DNA from: Paenibacillus sp. V4I7
Lineage (GTDB): Bacteria > Bacillota > Bacilli > Paenibacillales > NBRC-103111
Assembly: GCF_030817275.1 (NCBI RefSeq)
Contig: NZ_JAUSZD010000002.1
Location: 186,001-250,000, forward strand
Direction of reading: 5' to 3'
DNA length: 64,000 nt
In this document: positions 1,597 to 39,278 of the stretch, piece after piece
Position numbering within the stretch: position 1 is the first letter of the stretch
How the letters are laid out: each line of letters begins with the position of its first letter
Made by a program: the position numbers and the translations under genes
The notes under the pieces: model-generated
What the model was told of the DNA's origin: nothing
Seen by the model: only the letters and a program-made list of their open reading frames with translations
Database searches by the model: none

Positions 1597-2381
1597 CCAA
1601 ACTATTTTACGAATGCCATATGCTTGGAGATTCGGCTATTGTGATTAGGCTTGGTTCAGATATTGATTTATCGATTCTGAATCGAGTACGTCAATTAACA
1701 GCTTACCTAGTGAATAATCGTTTTGAAGGTTTTATCGAAATGGTAACGGCATATACAACAATCACGATATATTATGACAGCTTCCAGGTTTACAGCCACT
1801 ATTCAGAAGAGGGAACCACCCGAAAAAATGGGCGTGCCAGCTGGACGAATACGTTACTCCCCTATGACATTGTCTTATTACATATACAAAGTCTCTTAGA
1901 TAATTTTGAGCATACAAATGAGGTTCATATGAATGAGCTTGGGAGAACTATTGATATCCCTGTTTGTTACGGTGAGGATTATGGACCGGATCTTGCGGAT
2001 GTCGCGGCCTATCATCGTGTTAGCAAGGAAGAGATCGTGCACCTGCACACCTCACAGATCTTTCCAGTATATATGATTGGCTTTGCACCTGGATTTCCTT
2101 ATTTGGGTGGATTGAACGACCAGCTAGCTACACCAAGGAAACCGGTACCTCGGACGAGGATACCTGTCGGCTCGGTAGGCATTGGCGGCGCTCAAACAGG
2201 CATCTACCCCTTTGAAACGCCGGGCGGCTGGAATTTGATTGGTCGTACCCCGTTGGCTTTATTTCGTCCAGAGTCTGATCATCCATCACTACTGAAGGTA
2301 GGAGATCAAGTAAGATTTGTATCCATCACGGCAGAGCAGTTTCAATATGAAAAGGAGAGGAACATGGGAAATGGGCTTTGA
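1593..2381 (+). CDS. pxpB: 5-oxoprolinase subunit PxpB (KipI-like)
   Basis: About 262 residues of the CT_C_D (KipI) family. Diagnostic stretches are GFAPGFPYLGGL, PVGSVGIGGAQTGIYP and ETPGGWNLIGRTP. With PxpC and PxpA it forms the ATP-dependent 5-oxoprolinase that opens 5-oxo-L-proline to L-glutamate; the B. subtilis homologue KipI also inhibits kinase KinA. The start is the ATG at 1593, which overlaps the esterase stop as ATGA, implying translational coupling; the longer frame from 1560 lies inside the esterase. Its end overlaps the start of pxpC by 11 bases. Confidence 0.93.
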   Translation: MTKLFYECHMLGDSAIVIRLGSDIDLSILNRVRQLTAYLVNNRFEGFIEMVTAYTTITIYYDSFQVYSHYSEEGTTRKNGRASWTNTLLPYDIVLLHIQSLLDNFEHTNEVHMNELGRTIDIPVCYGEDYGPDLADVAAYHRVSKEEIVHLHTSQIFPVYMIGFAPGFPYLGGLNDQLATPRKPVPRTRIPVGSVGIGGAQTGIYPFETPGGWNLIGRTPLALFRPESDHPSLLKVGDQVRFVSITAEQFQYEKERNMGNGL

Positions 2382-3345
2382 GGTCATCAAGCCAGGATTA
2401 TTATCAACCTTGCAGGATGAGGGGCGGTACGGACAACGGAAGTATGGCGTCATTACATCTGGCCCCATGGACCTCTTTGCGCATCGAGCAGCCAATATAC
2501 TCGTTGGGAATGATAGAGGCGCAGCTGTTCTAGAGATCACACTGCTAGGACCAAGCATGGTTGCGCAAAAGGATATGCTGCTATCTCTATGTGGAGCTGA
2601 TATGGAAGCAGATAGGGATGGTATTCGGGTTCCATTGTGGCGACCATTTATGATCCGTAAAGGAGACCAGTTAAACGTTCATTATGCAGTTAAGGGGTGC
2701 AGAGCCTACTTAGCCGTGTATGGTGGTTTCGAGGTGAAACCTGTGATGGGCAGCAGAAGCACCTATTTACGTGCAGGAATAGGCGGCCATCAGGGGAGGG
2801 CATTACAAGCTGGAGATGATTTGCCGGTAAGACAAGAGGTGATAGGCGATTATCTTCACCATATAGGGTCAGTGAGTGCCTTTATTCGTCCGGGCTATGA
2901 AGAAAATCCTGTTGTAAGAGTCGTAAAAGGGAAGGAAGCTGCTCTTTTCACAGACGCAAGCATACGCAGCTTAATGTCTCAAAGCTATATTGTTACCGCG
3001 CAATCAGATCGTATGGGTTATCGCTTGGAAGGGATGAGGCTTGAACTCTCTGATGGCGTACCGAGTGAGATGATCTCAGAAGCTGTCGTCCAAGGGACGA
3101 TTCAAGTACCCCCAAGTGGACAGCCCATCTTGCTGATGGCGGACTGCCAAACAACCGGAGGCTACCCGCGCATCGCGCATGTCATCACGGCCGATCTTCC
3201 TTTAGTAGCTCAGGTGAAACCAGGCGGAAAGCTTCGTTTCCGAGAGGTCAGCCACCGTGAAGCCCAGGAGCAGATCTTGCTGCAGGCGATGGATTTGCGG
3301 CTGCTTGAGGCTGGGGTTCGGGCTTGGGTGCGGGATCGTGGGTGA
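2371..3345 (+). CDS. pxpC: 5-oxoprolinase subunit PxpC (KipA-like, biotin-dependent carboxyltransferase fold)
   Basis: About 324 residues of the AHS2/KipA family: N-terminal GLLSTLQDEGRYGQRKYGV, then SGPMD and the ATVQ/GGYPRIAHVI-type region (MADCQTTGGYPRIAHVITAD) near residues 255-275. It is the partner of PxpB in the oxoprolinase complex. The ATG at 2371 is preferred (AAAGGAGAGG about 10 bases upstream, and the product begins with the family-typical short lead MGFEVIKPG). The last codons end in GGGTGA; the GTGA here matches the start of pxpA (GTG AGA ATT), suggesting that the two genes once overlapped directly before the repeat tract arose between them. Confidence 0.93.
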   Translation: MGFEVIKPGLLSTLQDEGRYGQRKYGVITSGPMDLFAHRAANILVGNDRGAAVLEITLLGPSMVAQKDMLLSLCGADMEADRDGIRVPLWRPFMIRKGDQLNVHYAVKGCRAYLAVYGGFEVKPVMGSRSTYLRAGIGGHQGRALQAGDDLPVRQEVIGDYLHHIGSVSAFIRPGYEENPVVRVVKGKEAALFTDASIRSLMSQSYIVTAQSDRMGYRLEGMRLELSDGVPSEMISEAVVQGTIQVPPSGQPILLMADCQTTGGYPRIAHVITADLPLVAQVKPGGKLRFREVSHREAQEQILLQAMDLRLLEAGVRAWVRDRG

Positions 3346-33257: not shown

Positions 33258-35711
33258 ATGAAGGTTTCTTATCAATGGTTATCGGAATATGTAGATGTAT
33301 CAGGCTTCACAGCTGAGGAATTAGCAGAAAAACTTACCCGAAGCGGCATCGAAGTGGATATTGTGGAAGATCGCAATAAGGGTGTAACGAACGTAGTCGT
33401 TGGGTTTGTAAAATCACGCGAAAAACACCCAGATGCAGATAAATTAAGTGTGTGTATCATTGATGCCGGACAAGGCGAAGACTTGCAAATCGTTTGCGGG
33501 GCAAAAAATATCGATGCCGGACAAAAGGTGCCCGTCGCTATGATTGGAGCAGTGCTGCCTGGCGGACTGCAAATCAAACGCGCTAAACTGCGCGGCGTAG
33601 AGTCACAAGGCATGATTTGTTCAGCCAAAGAGCTTGGTCTGAACGACAAGCTGCTGCCGAAGGAAATTCAAGAAGGTATCCTAGTACTGCCTGAAGATAC
33701 CGAAATCGGCAGTTCAATTCTGGATGTCCTTGCTATCAACGACAAGGTATTAGAGCTTGATCTGACACCAAACCGCTCCGATTGCTTGAGCATGCTCGGA
33801 GCTGCTTATGAGATCGCAGCGATCCTCGGACGCAGCGTCAAACTGCCGGATGCGGAAGCAGCGCGCGGGGCGGCTGGAACAGCCGCAGTGAAAGCTTCTG
33901 ATCGCATCAGTGTGAAGATCACAGCGACGGAGCAGTGCTCGCACTACGCGGCTCGCCTTATCGAAGGCGTACGCGTCGGCACTTCTCCGCTGTGGATGCA
34001 AAACCGTTTGATGGCGGCTGGTATCCGTCCAATCAACAACATCGTTGACATCACGAATTTCGTGATGCTTGAATACGGCCAACCGCTACACGCTTTCGAT
34101 GCTGAGCAGTTGAACAATGGCCACATCGATGTACGCCTCGCTGAAGCCGGGGAGAAACTCGTCACGCTCGATGATGTGGAGCGTACTCTAGAGCCGCACA
34201 TGCTGCTTATCACGGACGGCACGAAACCGGTAGGGATTGCAGGTGTTATGGGCGGTGCTAACTCCGAAGTGACAGAAGGCACAACACGGATTCTGCTTGA
34301 ATCCGCCAAGTTCGCAGGCAGCTCTGTGCGCCGAACGTCGCGCCAGCTAGGGCTCCGCTCTGAAGCGAGTCTTCGCTTCGAGAAAGAAGTGAACCCGGAA
34401 GCGGTGATTCCGGCATTAAATCGTGCTGCAGCGTTAATAGCTCAATACGCAGCAGGTCAAGTCGCTGACGGCATCGTAGAAGCCGTAGCGGGCTCACACA
34501 AGCCGGTCAGCATCGAGCTTGCTGCTGACCGTGTGAACAATTATCTCGGCACTGAACTTTCCTTGGTCGAGATGGGTCAAATCATAGAGCGCCTGCACTT
34601 CACATTCGAGCAGGCAGGCGAAGGCAAGCTGCTCGTGCATGTGCCGAGCCGCCGAGGAGACATTACACGGGATGTCGATTTGATCGAAGAAGTAGCTCGC
34701 CTTTTCGGCTACGACAACATCCCGACAACGTTAATGACCGGCGTGACGACACCCGGATCCTTGACCAAAGAGCAGTCGATCCGTCGTATCACACGGAATC
34801 TCCTGACTCAAAGCGGACTGCATGAAGTCATCACTTATTCCTTCACACAGCCGGATCAAACCGTGTCGCTGCCGGGTCTATACCCAGCGGCTAAGCCAAT
34901 CTCGCTCGCTATGCCAATGAGCGAGGATCGCAGCCAACTGCGTACTAGCTTGCTGCCGCATCTGCTAGACGTAGTAAGCTACAATCGTAACCGTACGATG
35001 GATGACGTGGCTATTTTCGAAATCGGCAAAGTATTTATTACAGATGAATCTTCACTAACAGATTTGCCGCAAGAGAAGCTTCTCCTCTCCATTGTATTGA
35101 CAGGCAAACGCCGTCAAGCACATTGGGCACAAAAGTCCGAGGCTGTCGACTTTTATGATATCAAAGGTGTTTTTGACCGTCTTGTAAGCTACTTAGGCGT
35201 TAAAGGACTCACCTATAAAACTGCATCACCAGATGGTTTCCATCCGGGGCGAACAGCTGAGCTCCTCTTAAACACAGCTGAAGGTGAACAAGCAATAGGT
35301 CGAATCGGTCAACTGCATCCTACAGTGCAGCAGCAGCGTGATCTTGATGACACTTACGTACTTGAGGTTGAGCTTTCCCCAATTTTAGAAGCTGCTGGAG
35401 ATGCAATTGTATATAAATTGCTGCCGCGTTATCCGTCAATTGGACGCGATCTTGCTGTAGTAGTGAATGCTAGTGTACCAGTAGGTCTAATGGAACAAAC
35501 CATCACTGAAGTTGCCGGAGACTTGTTAGAATCCATTCAAGTATTCGATATCTATACTGGAGAACGTTTAGGCGCAAATCGCAAAAGCGTAGCCATTGCC
35601 TTCGTATACCGACACGCAGAGAGAACACTGCTGGATGAAGAAGTAACAGAGCTCCATGCCAAAGTTGTTCAAACCCTTGAACAACAATATGAGGCAGAGT
35701 TAAGAAAATAG
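33258..35711 (+). CDS. pheT: Phenylalanyl-tRNA synthetase beta subunit
   Basis: 817 residues, usual for the bacterial beta subunit. In order: N-terminal B1 with an EMAP/OB tRNA-binding domain (about 40-155, HPDADKLSVC), B3/B4 editing domain, B5 (about 410-480), the catalytic-like core, and a C-terminal ferredoxin-fold anticodon-binding domain (from about 724, LPRYPSIGRDLAVVVN). It recognises tRNA and edits misacylated Tyr-tRNA. AAGGAGGGG precedes the ATG. Confidence 0.98.
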   Translation: MKVSYQWLSEYVDVSGFTAEELAEKLTRSGIEVDIVEDRNKGVTNVVVGFVKSREKHPDADKLSVCIIDAGQGEDLQIVCGAKNIDAGQKVPVAMIGAVLPGGLQIKRAKLRGVESQGMICSAKELGLNDKLLPKEIQEGILVLPEDTEIGSSILDVLAINDKVLELDLTPNRSDCLSMLGAAYEIAAILGRSVKLPDAEAARGAAGTAAVKASDRISVKITATEQCSHYAARLIEGVRVGTSPLWMQNRLMAAGIRPINNIVDITNFVMLEYGQPLHAFDAEQLNNGHIDVRLAEAGEKLVTLDDVERTLEPHMLLITDGTKPVGIAGVMGGANSEVTEGTTRILLESAKFAGSSVRRTSRQLGLRSEASLRFEKEVNPEAVIPALNRAAALIAQYAAGQVADGIVEAVAGSHKPVSIELAADRVNNYLGTELSLVEMGQIIERLHFTFEQAGEGKLLVHVPSRRGDITRDVDLIEEVARLFGYDNIPTTLMTGVTTPGSLTKEQSIRRITRNLLTQSGLHEVITYSFTQPDQTVSLPGLYPAAKPISLAMPMSEDRSQLRTSLLPHLLDVVSYNRNRTMDDVAIFEIGKVFITDESSLTDLPQEKLLLSIVLTGKRRQAHWAQKSEAVDFYDIKGVFDRLVSYLGVKGLTYKTASPDGFHPGRTAELLLNTAEGEQAIGRIGQLHPTVQQQRDLDDTYVLEVELSPILEAAGDAIVYKLLPRYPSIGRDLAVVVNASVPVGLMEQTITEVAGDLLESIQVFDIYTGERLGANRKSVAIAFVYRHAERTLLDEEVTELHAKVVQTLEQQYEAELRK

Positions 35712-35783: not shown

Positions 35784-35805
35784 ATCTAAGGGAGGATATA
35801 AAAAA

Positions 35806-37344
35806 GTGAACGCTGAAGATAAAACGAGGATTACCGTTGATATATATGGACACCAATACAAATTAAAAGCTAGCACCAGCACCAATTACATGAAGCGAGT
35901 AGCTGAATACGTGAACGACCAAATGTTTCGTATTGCAAAAGGTTATCCGCGGCTAGATTCACAGAAAATCGCCGTTTTGGCTGCCGTGAACATGGCAGAT
36001 GAGTGCTTCCGTATGAACGAAATCATGGAAGAACTGACCAAAGCCCAAAAGGACCAAGTAGCAACCAAAGCCGCCTATGATAAATTAATCGTAAACTTTA
36101 ACGAATTGAAACAAGAATATGAGCAACAACAGACATCCATAAGTGAACAAAATGCTAAGCTAGTACAAGGTAACCAAACGCAAGAGCAAATGAAACAAGA
36201 AGTGCAGAAAGCAAAACAAGAACAAGAGCAGTTGAGGCAACAACTACAACAAGCAAAACAACTACAAGAGCAAGCTAAACAACAACAACAAGAACAAACT
36301 AAACAACAGCAAGAACAAGCTAAACAGCAGCAAGAGCAAGTCAAGCAACAACTTGAACAAGTCAAACAACAGCTAGAGCAAGAAAAACGTCAACAAATAC
36401 AAGTAAGACAACTGCTAGACCAAGAAAAACAACAACACCAACAAACAAAGCAACAATTCGAACAAGAGAAACAACAAAAAGCACTTCAGCTTCAAAAGCT
36501 GAACGAACAACACAGAGTCGAAAAACAATCTCTCTCAGAAATACACTTGCAAGACAAAGAAATGTTACATCAGCAATATCAACAAGACAAAGAAGCACTA
36601 ATGCAGCTACATCTGCAGGATAAAGAAATCATAAACATGCAACAGCAAGAAGAGATCTTTAAACTTTCGAACCAGTATCTAGTGGAAAAGGAAACACTCG
36701 TTAATCAACATCAAGAGGAACTAGAAAACATCACAATCCAACATCAAACGGAACTTGAAACTATCACAAACCAACTTCAAGAGAGAATAAATACAATTAC
36801 GAACCAACTCCAAGAAAGAATAAATGCAATTTCAAACCAACATAATGAGAAAATAGATATAATTACAAATCAACATCAAGAGGAAATTGAAACTCTTACA
36901 ATCAAGCACCAAGAGGAACTAGAAACGCTAACCGCCCTTTACCAAGACGAGGCTGATGCTAAGATTCTTCGTTTTGAGCAAGATAAAGGCAATCTAGTTG
37001 GGGAATTCCAAGAACGACAAACAAACATTATTCAACAGCTTGAGGACCAAAAATCAACCATTATTACCCAATATCAAGCGCAAATTGATGCCTTACTAGA
37101 GCAGCAGCAATTAGAACGAAGTACCCTTGCTCAACATTTTGAAGAAGAAAAAGAACGGATTTTAGCACAGGCCCGCAGAGAAAAAGAAGAGCTAATGCGC
37201 CAAAGCTTGAACGATGAAGCTCAGCAAAAAGAACTTCAAAATATCAAAGAAGAGTATAGAGAACTGCGCGAGGAATATGCTAAGCTGCAGAATGAATACA
37301 ATGAGTGGATCGAGCTTGTAGAAACAGACAGCCCTGGCAGGTAA
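35806..37344 (+). CDS. zapA: ZapA-like cell division protein with a giant repetitive coiled coil
   Basis: 512 residues, against roughly 85-170 for usual Firmicute ZapA. Residues 1-78 are a normal ZapA domain (ITVDIYGHQYKLKAS...YVNDQMFRIAKGYPRLDSQKIAVLAAVNMADE). Residues about 115-234 are Gln/Lys/Glu-rich heptads (QQQEQAK, QQLEQVK). Residues 235-465 form 21 consecutive 11-residue repeats without a gap (examples QHQEELENITI, QLQERINTITN, QHQEEIETLTI; Gln/His first, Glu/Asp fifth, Leu/Ile ninth). The end is a further coiled coil. ZapA binds FtsZ polymers; the tail could act as a long spacer or crosslinker. Start GTG 35806 with GGGAGG 10 bases upstream. Place between pheT and cvpA is conserved. 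Confidence 0.93.
   Translation: MNAEDKTRITVDIYGHQYKLKASTSTNYMKRVAEYVNDQMFRIAKGYPRLDSQKIAVLAAVNMADECFRMNEIMEELTKAQKDQVATKAAYDKLIVNFNELKQEYEQQQTSISEQNAKLVQGNQTQEQMKQEVQKAKQEQEQLRQQLQQAKQLQEQAKQQQQEQTKQQQEQAKQQQEQVKQQLEQVKQQLEQEKRQQIQVRQLLDQEKQQHQQTKQQFEQEKQQKALQLQKLNEQHRVEKQSLSEIHLQDKEMLHQQYQQDKEALMQLHLQDKEIINMQQQEEIFKLSNQYLVEKETLVNQHQEELENITIQHQTELETITNQLQERINTITNQLQERINAISNQHNEKIDIITNQHQEEIETLTIKHQEELETLTALYQDEADAKILRFEQDKGNLVGEFQERQTNIIQQLEDQKSTIITQYQAQIDALLEQQQLERSTLAQHFEEEKERILAQARREKEELMRQSLNDEAQQKELQNIKEEYRELREEYAKLQNEYNEWIELVETDSPGR
36508..37200 (+). repeat. 33 bp coding repeats (21 hendecads) in zapA
   Basis: 21 x 33 bp = 693 bp, each unit coding for 11 residues. The most similar neighbours are at about 36772-36837 (QLQERINTITN and QLQERINAISN). 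Similarity is stronger at the residue-pattern level than at the DNA level in the outer units, so the array is old with a more recently duplicated centre. Confidence 0.9.
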
Positions 37345-37350
37345 TCCACA

Positions 37351-37905
37351 GTGACAATGAATACATTAGACTATGTCATGTTGTCGATAGTAGCTTTGGG
37401 TCTGCTGCTAGGTTACTTTAGAGGATTTATTGCCCAGATTGTTTCGCTCTCAGGTTTTGTTCTCGCCTACCTCGTTGCATTTTATTTTTACAGGGATTTT
37501 GCCCCTCTGCTTCGAAACGCAGTTTCACTGCCTACCTATCAAAATTACCAAAAATACGAATTTATCGTAAAAGGCCTTAATTTGGATACCTATATCCTGA
37601 ATGCTTTAGCCTTTGCAATATTGTTTTTTGGCGTAAAATTTGCACTAGTCATCGTAGGCAGAGCACTTAATATTCTAGCAAAAACCCCAGGCCTGAACTT
37701 CATCAACCGTTGGAGCGGCGCATTGTTGGGCTTAGCAGAAGCACTTTTGATCATCATTATAGCCGTCAATGTTATCACCATCATGCCCTCAGACGGACTT
37801 CAAAAGCTGCTATCAAGCTCAACCATAGCTCCATATTTAATTAACGAATTACCCAATATTGCAGGAAAACTCCAAGAACTCTGGAAACAAGGAATCCCCC
37901 TATAG
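37351..37905 (+). CDS. cvpA: CvpA family membrane protein
   Basis: 184 residues, four membrane segments (about 5-25, 28-48, 80-102 and 122-145). Features are LDYVMLSIVALGLLLGYFRGFIAQIVSLSGFVLAYL and the second-half helix GLAEALLIIIIAVNVI. CvpA proteins are inner-membrane proteins linked to colicin V production in E. coli and to envelope function; in Firmicutes they lie between zapA and mutS2, as here. Start GTG 37351 (AGGT site) or ATG 37357. Confidence 0.93.
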   Translation: MTMNTLDYVMLSIVALGLLLGYFRGFIAQIVSLSGFVLAYLVAFYFYRDFAPLLRNAVSLPTYQNYQKYEFIVKGLNLDTYILNALAFAILFFGVKFALVIVGRALNILAKTPGLNFINRWSGALLGLAEALLIIIIAVNVITIMPSDGLQKLLSSSTIAPYLINELPNIAGKLQELWKQGIPL

Positions 37906-38080: not shown

Positions 38081-38172
38081 GTCCCAGCCACCCCCCAGCC
38101 ACCCCCACCCCCAGCCACCCCCACCCCCAGCCACCCCCACCCCCAGCCACCCCCACCCTCAGCCCCAACCAT
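38081..38172 (+). repeat. 16 bp C-rich minisatellite
   Basis: CCAGCCACCCCCACCC-type unit; the AG of successive units lies at 38097, 38113, 38129, 38145 and 38161, exactly 16 bp apart. The minus strand is GGGTGG-rich with G-quadruplex potential. Confidence 0.9.
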
Positions 38173-38173
38173 A

Positions 38174-38221
38174 CCCGCACCCGCACCCGCACCCGCACCC
38201 GCACCCGCACCCGCACCCGCA
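38174..38221 (+). repeat. Hexanucleotide repeat (CCCGCA)8
   Basis: Eight uninterrupted copies of CCCGCA directly after the 16 bp minisatellite. Perfect copies suggest recent expansion and likely length variation between strains. Confidence 0.95.
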
Positions 38222-38386
38222 CCCACAACATCTAACGAGTTTCGCAATCATTACTCCATTAATTGAAGCCAGGAAGTCTAAAAAACAGTGAAATCAAGGA
38301 CAATAACCTTCGCAACATAGCAATAACAGCTGACCCGATAATTGCGAAAATGTCTTCACTCGAACCTTATACTCTAAAATTATGTA

Positions 38387-38672: not shown

Positions 38673-39278
38673 ATGGATGCTTATTTATTTGAATCGTTGG
38701 ATGACACTTTCAAGACAGAGGAAGATTGTGTAAGACTTTTGACGAAAAGACGGTGGGCGGGTGGGTTTTGTTGTCCGAGTTGTGATTATCATTTATTTTA
38801 TATTGTGAAGACTCGTAATTTATTGGAGTGTAAAGAATGCCGTACGCAAATTTCATTAACGGCTGGAACGGTTATGCATAAATCTAAGCTTTCCTTAATG
38901 ATTTGGTTCAAAGCTATTCGAGCATTGATCCAGGAACAACAAACTTATTCGATTGCAGCGTTTGCGAGCTTGCTTGGAGTAAATTATCGAACTGCTAAGT
39001 TGATGCTGGAGAAGCTGCAACTAGCTCTTTATAAGCAATACTCACGCATGGGTTCAGGTGCGGACAGAATTCGTGAACAAAAAGTAGAGTCCAGCCCAAA
39101 TAAAAGAAAGCGTACAACTGTTAACTCTCGAAAGATCAACACCAACTTTTGTACGTATATATTTACAAATTCCAAGAAAATAAAGTATGTTGAGGGTGTT
39201 TTGTTTAGAAAGTGGATGGATGCTTTCTTATCCGTTTATTTGTTTCCTGTCTATTTAAGGTATTGTCAAGTGCTTTGA
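38673..39278 (+). CDS. IS1595-type transposase N-terminus without catalytic domain (possible domesticated DNA-binding protein)
   Basis: 201 residues. The first 120 match the transposase zinc ribbon (CCPSCDYH about 33-40, ECKECRTQISLTAGTVMHKSKLSLMIWFKAI about 54-84) and the following helix-turn-helix (SIAAFASLLGVNYRTAKLMLEKL). The ISXO2-type DDE nuclease domain that should follow is missing: residues 125-201 are a basic linker (SPNKRKRTTVNSRK) and an unfamiliar hydrophobic end. It has a good promoter and ribosome binding site. It could be a truncated insertion-sequence remnant or a domesticated regulator; the three dyads upstream are possible sites. No terminal inverted repeats of an intact element were found. 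Confidence 0.75.
   Translation: MDAYLFESLDDTFKTEEDCVRLLTKRRWAGGFCCPSCDYHLFYIVKTRNLLECKECRTQISLTAGTVMHKSKLSLMIWFKAIRALIQEQQTYSIAAFASLLGVNYRTAKLMLEKLQLALYKQYSRMGSGADRIREQKVESSPNKRKRTTVNSRKINTNFCTYIFTNSKKIKYVEGVLFRKWMDAFLSVYLFPVYLRYCQVL

Follow-up and report, generated by a model that had tools for sequence, protein, structure and literature searches.

ZapA is, in the textbook picture, a protein of about 90 amino acids (~10 kDa) that keeps FtsZ filaments at a fixed, short spacing. The window analysed here, a stretch of 64,000 nucleotides from Paenibacillus sp. V4I7, carries on its forward strand an elongated zapA (35806..37344) with a GTG start and an open reading frame of 512 amino acids, preceded by a ribosome-binding site, GGGAGG, read directly from the sequence (35790..35795, forward strand). 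The locus raises the question of how a ZapA of this size is built, how widely it occurs and what its added length is for. The initial annotation knew of no description of such a protein, and none was present among the matches listed in a literature search for long ZapA in Paenibacillus, which covered few subscription papers.

The gene lies in the pheT-zapA-cvpA order of Bacillus, between pheT (33258..35711, forward strand, assigned by Pfam) and cvpA (37351..37905, forward strand, Pfam Colicin_V, 110.8 bits). It is the sole PF05164 match of the genome (two contigs, 100% complete), and the 512-residue protein is the cell's only ZapA. Further downstream, GC-rich simple repeats at 38083-38224 (a 16-bp unit x 4.6, 98%; a 6-bp unit x 24, 76%) separate cvpA from an insertion sequence fragment; the open reading frame at 38673-39278 encodes the zinc ribbon of an IS1595-type transposase (Pfam, 45 bits) with no other transposase domain found, and is probably the decayed remnant of an insertion that lies between cvpA and mutS2.

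Head, rod and C-terminal helix of the 512-residue protein

The N-terminal head (residues 1-82; 35806..36051, forward strand) had been described as normal ZapA, and Pfam, AF2 and Foldseek agree: the protein scores 40.0 bits against PF05164 (cut-off 23.8), the AF2 model of the head (pLDDT 92.6) shows the ZapA fold of two strands, a helix and a long second helix, and Foldseek with the predicted head returned ZapA structures at all of ranks 1-10. The NCBIfam equivalog PRK14126 was matched over residues 3-82 at 61.3 bits, under its cut-off of 80, which we take to be a naming threshold for the short form; at 512 amino acids the protein lacks the shortness of ZapA, which marks it as a variant, and it was filed as such. 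A Pfam scan of the whole protein (E <= 0.01) returned ZapA only, with neither a DivIVA-like N-terminal domain nor EzrA.

The rod that follows has two parts. The first, Gln-rich part (residues 81-234; 36046..36507, forward strand) has a 3.5-residue period and is underlain by a 21-bp tandem DNA repeat at 36209-36481, in keeping with the heptad section that the initial annotation had placed before the hendecads. The second (residues 235-465; 36508..37200, forward strand) had been described as exactly 21 consecutive, gap-free hendecads, and the register analysis confirmed this. When its 231 residues were set in 11 columns, self-similarity lay 28 standard deviations above shuffles (z = 28), none of the other periods from 3 to 15 exceeding 0.2 standard deviations, and a leave-one-out profile found this register to be the best of 11 offsets for 21 of 21 units (100 shuffles: mean 2.0, maximum 6 units in register). 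Ten 11-mers tested outside both ends scored negative in the same register, so 21 is the right number of units; a 33-bp DNA repeat lies within this part at 36706-36925. The residue preferences first noted also hold, position 1 being Gln in 14 of the 21 units, position 5 Asp/Glu in 15 and position 9 Leu/Ile in 20. Hendecads have a core spacing of 4-3-4, which is fitted by positions 2, 6 and 9, with position 6 charged in 10 of 21 units and hydrophobic in 10. At a helix rise of 0.1485 nm per residue the 231 residues extend ~34 nm, close to the ~35 nm originally estimated. The rod contains no proline and three glycines. AF2 modelling of the full-length protein from seven sequences gave moderate scores (pLDDT 75.3, pTM 0.26), with the helix broken at residues 150-170 and 270-280 and low confidence at both.

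The protein ends in a conserved helix, EYAKLQNEYNEWIELVE (residues 490-506; 37273..37323, forward strand), which is likely the original ZapA C-terminus and which we think is the functional key, missed by the initial annotation. The end conserved in Paenibacillales (EYxKLQxEYNEWIELVE) resembles that of ordinary Bacilli ZapA, EYFKLKQEYEELLKLLE (consensus of 30), both showing the pattern EYxKLxxEYxExxxLxE; at residues 490-506 the match is short and partly aided by composition. A C-helix profile from the 30 Bacilli ZapA was scanned beyond residue 85 of the 149 Paenibacillales proteins described below, and its best match fell within the last 45 residues in 139 of them, 138 of which also carry the end-helix motif pattern; at least one member in each of 39 genera, and all members in 33, had the match at the C-terminus. 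Forty column-shuffled profiles placed on average 25.9, and at most 90, of the 149 proteins there, so composition helps this match, in which the shared helix spans only 17 residues. When the profile was slid along Bacilli ZapA, the count peaked at the end helix (139 of 149) and reached at most 54 in non-overlapping windows. Since the conserved end matches the Bacilli ZapA C-terminus, the rod appears to have been inserted inside the ZapA helix, between the head and the old C-terminal tail. Duplication of the end helix may have been the route, as a diverged copy with a comparable pattern persists beside the head (observed in 66 of the 149 proteins, those to which a simple pattern could be fitted). 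On the sequence evidence, a two-part coiled-coil rod very probably stands between a ZapA head and the ancestral C-terminal end.

Occurrence, length and evolution of the rod

ZapA was detected in 98 of the 104 genomes of the window's family and in 239 of the 246 of its order; a search with the head sequence brought back four members of the genus that the HMM had overlooked, and still found no ZapA in two incomplete genomes (G036 and G055). The loci of 160 Paenibacillales were read (102 from family f1, which has 104 genomes, 41 from family f10 and 17 from other families), of which 11 run off their contig, leaving 149 frames uncut by a contig end; family f10 was read in part, and 20 of its 41 had been picked as close relatives with similar open frames. 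The end helix is present in 139 of the 149 uncut frames (lengths 138 to 1,892 aa, median 859), and only G030 (138 aa) is under 149 aa. The ten frames lacking the motif pattern comprise two with a diverged end (G113, G122) and eight broken ones, interrupted by a stop within the gene (G023), an apparent frameshift (G052, G078) or runs of N (G063, G080, G081, G082, G090). The window's ZapA is thus no single odd protein: at 512 aa it is shorter than the order median, and elongated ZapA is an order-wide trait of Paenibacillales.

The periodicity of homologues had been proposed as a check on the hendecads, and the outcome was divided. Of 125 long homologues, 71 showed lag-11 self-similarity (z of at least 4), and these came from 19 of 31 genera; in the other 54 it was weaker or absent. 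Hendecads are common in Paenibacillales ZapA rods, not universal. The seven members of the genus that align to the window's ZapA at 80% or more have uninterrupted frames, share its head and end, and differ from it by gaps of unit size.

Rod length varies widely. Across 28 species of the window's genus, ZapA ranges from 303 to 822 aa, with a coefficient of variation (CV) of 0.21 compared to 0.02 for the adjoining CvpA (found in 25), and over the 84 of 139 loci beside which CvpA was found (none in the listed f10 genera with this query) the CV is 0.46 for ZapA and 0.04 for CvpA. Lengths differ up to five-fold inside a genus (251 vs 1,310 aa; 472 vs 1,516 aa). One clade is steady, its five species having 1,589-1,740 aa (CV 0.03), and the twenty f10 relatives, chosen by similar open frames, lie at 902-935 aa.

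The rods change length mainly in coiled-coil units, heptads and hendecads. Gaps were compared in 163 pairs of relatives with at least 80% identity in aligned columns, the pairs sharing history and not being independent. Of the 98 distinct gaps no longer than 40 residues, 79 are sums of 7 and 11, for which 37.5% of integers qualify; for gaps of all sizes the count is 123 of 146, and as every integer above 59 is such a sum, the argument is based on the gaps of 40 residues or fewer. Within the window's clade, length changes in the hendecad part are multiples of 11 (one alignment splitting 110 into 68 + 42), and those in the Gln-rich part amount to 7, 14, 22, 29, 36 or 43; the 22-residue change we read as three heptads, one of which has a skip residue. 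In 122 of 125 long rods, the lag with the strongest self-similarity is likewise a sum of 7 and 11 (39% of lags qualify). Repeat slippage alone, without selection, would yield such unit-sized indels. Pooled dN/dS over 19 pairs, which overlap in species and include some dS values above 1 or saturated, was 0.025 in the last 30 residues, the most constrained part, compared to 0.087 in the head and 0.161 in the rod, which is thus under purifying selection. Proline accounts for 0.03% of 99,265 rod residues and for 2 of 1,854 amino-acid differences in the rod, compared to 8.5% expected from single-base amino-acid changes in rod codons.

Some individual loci are recorded here. In G023 (L131) a 183-aa head frame (from about nucleotide 1485) is followed in frame by a 378-aa frame with the conserved end (2058-3192), a split that is either a natural break or an assembly error. 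In Bacilli outside the order, the listed matches above cut-off all have open frames of 74-258 aa, with no inserted rod of comparable length in those read. For six genomes elsewhere in the phylum, the search gave ZapA frames of about 660-690 aa (660-687 aa in G399, G515, G616, G600, G662 and G623), but direct reading of the DNA gave 100-107 aa in all six. Six further loci elsewhere in the phylum, among the matches listed, have ZapA frames of 126-335 aa; beyond these listed matches, giants outside the order may yet occur. Three of the six further loci, in one non-Bacilli family (L316, L317 and L319, in G438, G392 and G562), have a Pro/Gly-rich tail, with 35-42% P+G after the head, that is probably disordered; another outside Bacilli (L321, G575) has a 197-aa frame with a low-Pro/Gly, coiled-coil-like extension.

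Candidate functions of the rod

In our heptad assignment of the end helix, hydrophobic residues occupy positions a, d, e and g (Y2, L5, Y9, W12, I13, L15 and V16 of 17), a pattern characteristic of four-helix contacts. According to the portions available of three reports, known ZapA is an antiparallel tetramer in which C-terminal coiled coils join two dimer heads, and tetramerisation is required for function (PMC12754632, PMC12216130, PMC7246612). By analogy with ZapA of E. coli and Pseudomonas, we infer that the Bacilli end helix is a tetramer contact. The most likely reading of the long form, to which we would give about an even chance, is a stretched ZapA dumbbell with its heads on FtsZ and its tails meeting through the old end helix. 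In this model the FtsZ-binding dimer head is kept and the long rod sits within the C-terminal helix, as the sequence indicates. Along the rod, two chains would run parallel as a pair; two of these dimers would then meet at their tails via the retained helix, like the coils of the ordinary tetramer, a step with about even odds; and the two head pairs could hold FtsZ filaments up to ~130 nm apart here (a rod of ~65 nm, doubled). In favour of the model are the end helix in 139 of 149 frames with its profile match, the strong constraint on the last 30 residues, the scarcity of proline and the unit-sized gaps and lags. The brevity of the shared end helix and its help from composition, the ability of slippage alone to make such gaps, the moderate AF2 model of the full protein and the NCBIfam score under its cut-off weigh against it. 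That the whole order turned its FtsZ cross-linker into such a dumbbell, bridging tens to hundreds of nanometres, with heptad or hendecad length steps and both ends fixed, is plausible and somewhat short of an even prospect.

In the main rival, which seems rather unlikely to us, the rod is a parallel dimer with its heads on FtsZ, and the tip attaches to a different protein, of cell division or of the nucleoid, in the role of ZapB (E. coli) or ZapJ (Streptococcus). That the tip is the most constrained part (dN/dS 0.025) would suit a docking site, ZapA partners of this type exist (ZapB and ZapJ, in the accessible part of PMC8687745), and the divisome is unlike that of other Bacilli: in 20 genomes scored more fully for EzrA, 7 of 8 other Bacilli gave 225-579 bits and all 12 Paenibacillales 30.9 bits or less, so that no clear EzrA was present in the 12. 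The tip, however, resembles ordinary Bacilli ZapA ends, which adjoin the head, so no new partner is needed, and it is encoded at no second place, no second gene with the conserved tip being found in this genome (next match E = 1.8). EzrA, moreover, was not found in members with a short ZapA either, so its loss does not track length, and EzrA loss as the cause of the rod was rejected on that account.

Next comes a largely passive spacer, a shade less probable than docking, in which repeat slippage sets the length, a helix of any kind would do as long as it is continuous, and the protein functions like ordinary ZapA. The five-fold differences within a genus and the mostly unit-sized indels would be expected of it, but the rod dN/dS of 0.16 together with the near-absence of proline indicates that an unbroken coiled coil is maintained, and lengths are kept in the five species at 1,589-1,740 aa and in the twenty relatives at 902-935 aa, though the latter were picked by similar open frames; nor is more than one of the 149 uncut frames under 149 aa. 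The opposite extreme, a fixed molecular ruler setting one FtsZ filament spacing, as the initial annotation had suggested, would gain from the presumed rigidity of a hendecad rod and from the one steady clade, yet ZapA length varies so widely between species (303 to 822 aa in one genus, and the CV of 0.46 against 0.04 for CvpA over 84 loci) that a universal ruler is very improbable and was rejected; the coiled-coil proteins of the synaptonemal complex, which has a fixed width, have by contrast length CVs of ~0.03-0.04 in the part of PMC8598163 that was available. A frameshift, an assembly error or a fusion of two genes, named at the outset as what could undo the observation, has the eight broken frames in its favour and against it 139 intact frames with a common end, two more with a diverged end, and purifying selection along the rod, leaving its probability negligible. 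A link between FtsZ and the envelope, also suggested initially, was rejected: no long hydrophobic stretch was seen when the sequence was read by eye, and the tip helix of the 512-residue protein is acidic, with E at five of 17 positions and one K.

If the stretched dumbbell is correct, Paenibacillales hold a natural series of cross-linker lengths with which to test how linker reach shapes the Z ring, bearing on whether that reach matters for Z-ring condensation. An order median of 859 aa, with conserved ends and a length-variable middle, questions the picture of ZapA as a ~10-kDa protein acting over a fixed short distance, and ZapA of up to 1,892 aa may connect division filaments that lie much further apart than the textbook form allows. 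The rod is also a clear example of coiled-coil evolution by units that preserve the register.

Comparison with known systems

The head fold is common to the Paenibacillus long form and to ZapA of Bacilli, E. coli, Pseudomonas and Klebsiella (PF05164), and long and ordinary ZapA alike are encoded in single copy. By way of a second element, ZapB and ZapJ let ZapA reach further, in the portion of PMC8687745 that could be consulted, as the rod would do; they are separate proteins, whereas the extension here lies within the ZapA chain.

EzrA, like long ZapA, is a long helical protein acting on FtsZ in Bacilli, where it is a regulator, but it is spectrin-like and membrane-anchored (PMC8687745, available part), unlike long ZapA. 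It seems to be missing from Paenibacillales. The EzrA model PF06160 had no match at E <= 0.001 in this genome, and a wider search (eight candidates scored in most genomes) gave some match in 51 of the 149 order genomes, 17 above cut-off; most were partial, the best reaching 71.9 bits over part of the model, and we take these weak matches to reflect coiled-coil similarity. In one genome (G107) the match covers model positions 3-553 of 557 with 49.7 bits and may be a divergent copy; a divergent EzrA may occur in a few genomes of the order. G278, one of the eight other Bacilli, has no clear EzrA, yet its ZapA has 91 aa.

The nearest precedent is found in FilP and Scy of Actinobacteria, division-related coiled coils in which, as in long ZapA, heptads are expanded by hendecads, with sizes ranging from fewer than 200 to more than 1,000 residues (PMC9858780, in the text available). 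Their N-terminal domain is DivIVA-like, whereas the ZapA rod stands between two conserved segments of ZapA itself.
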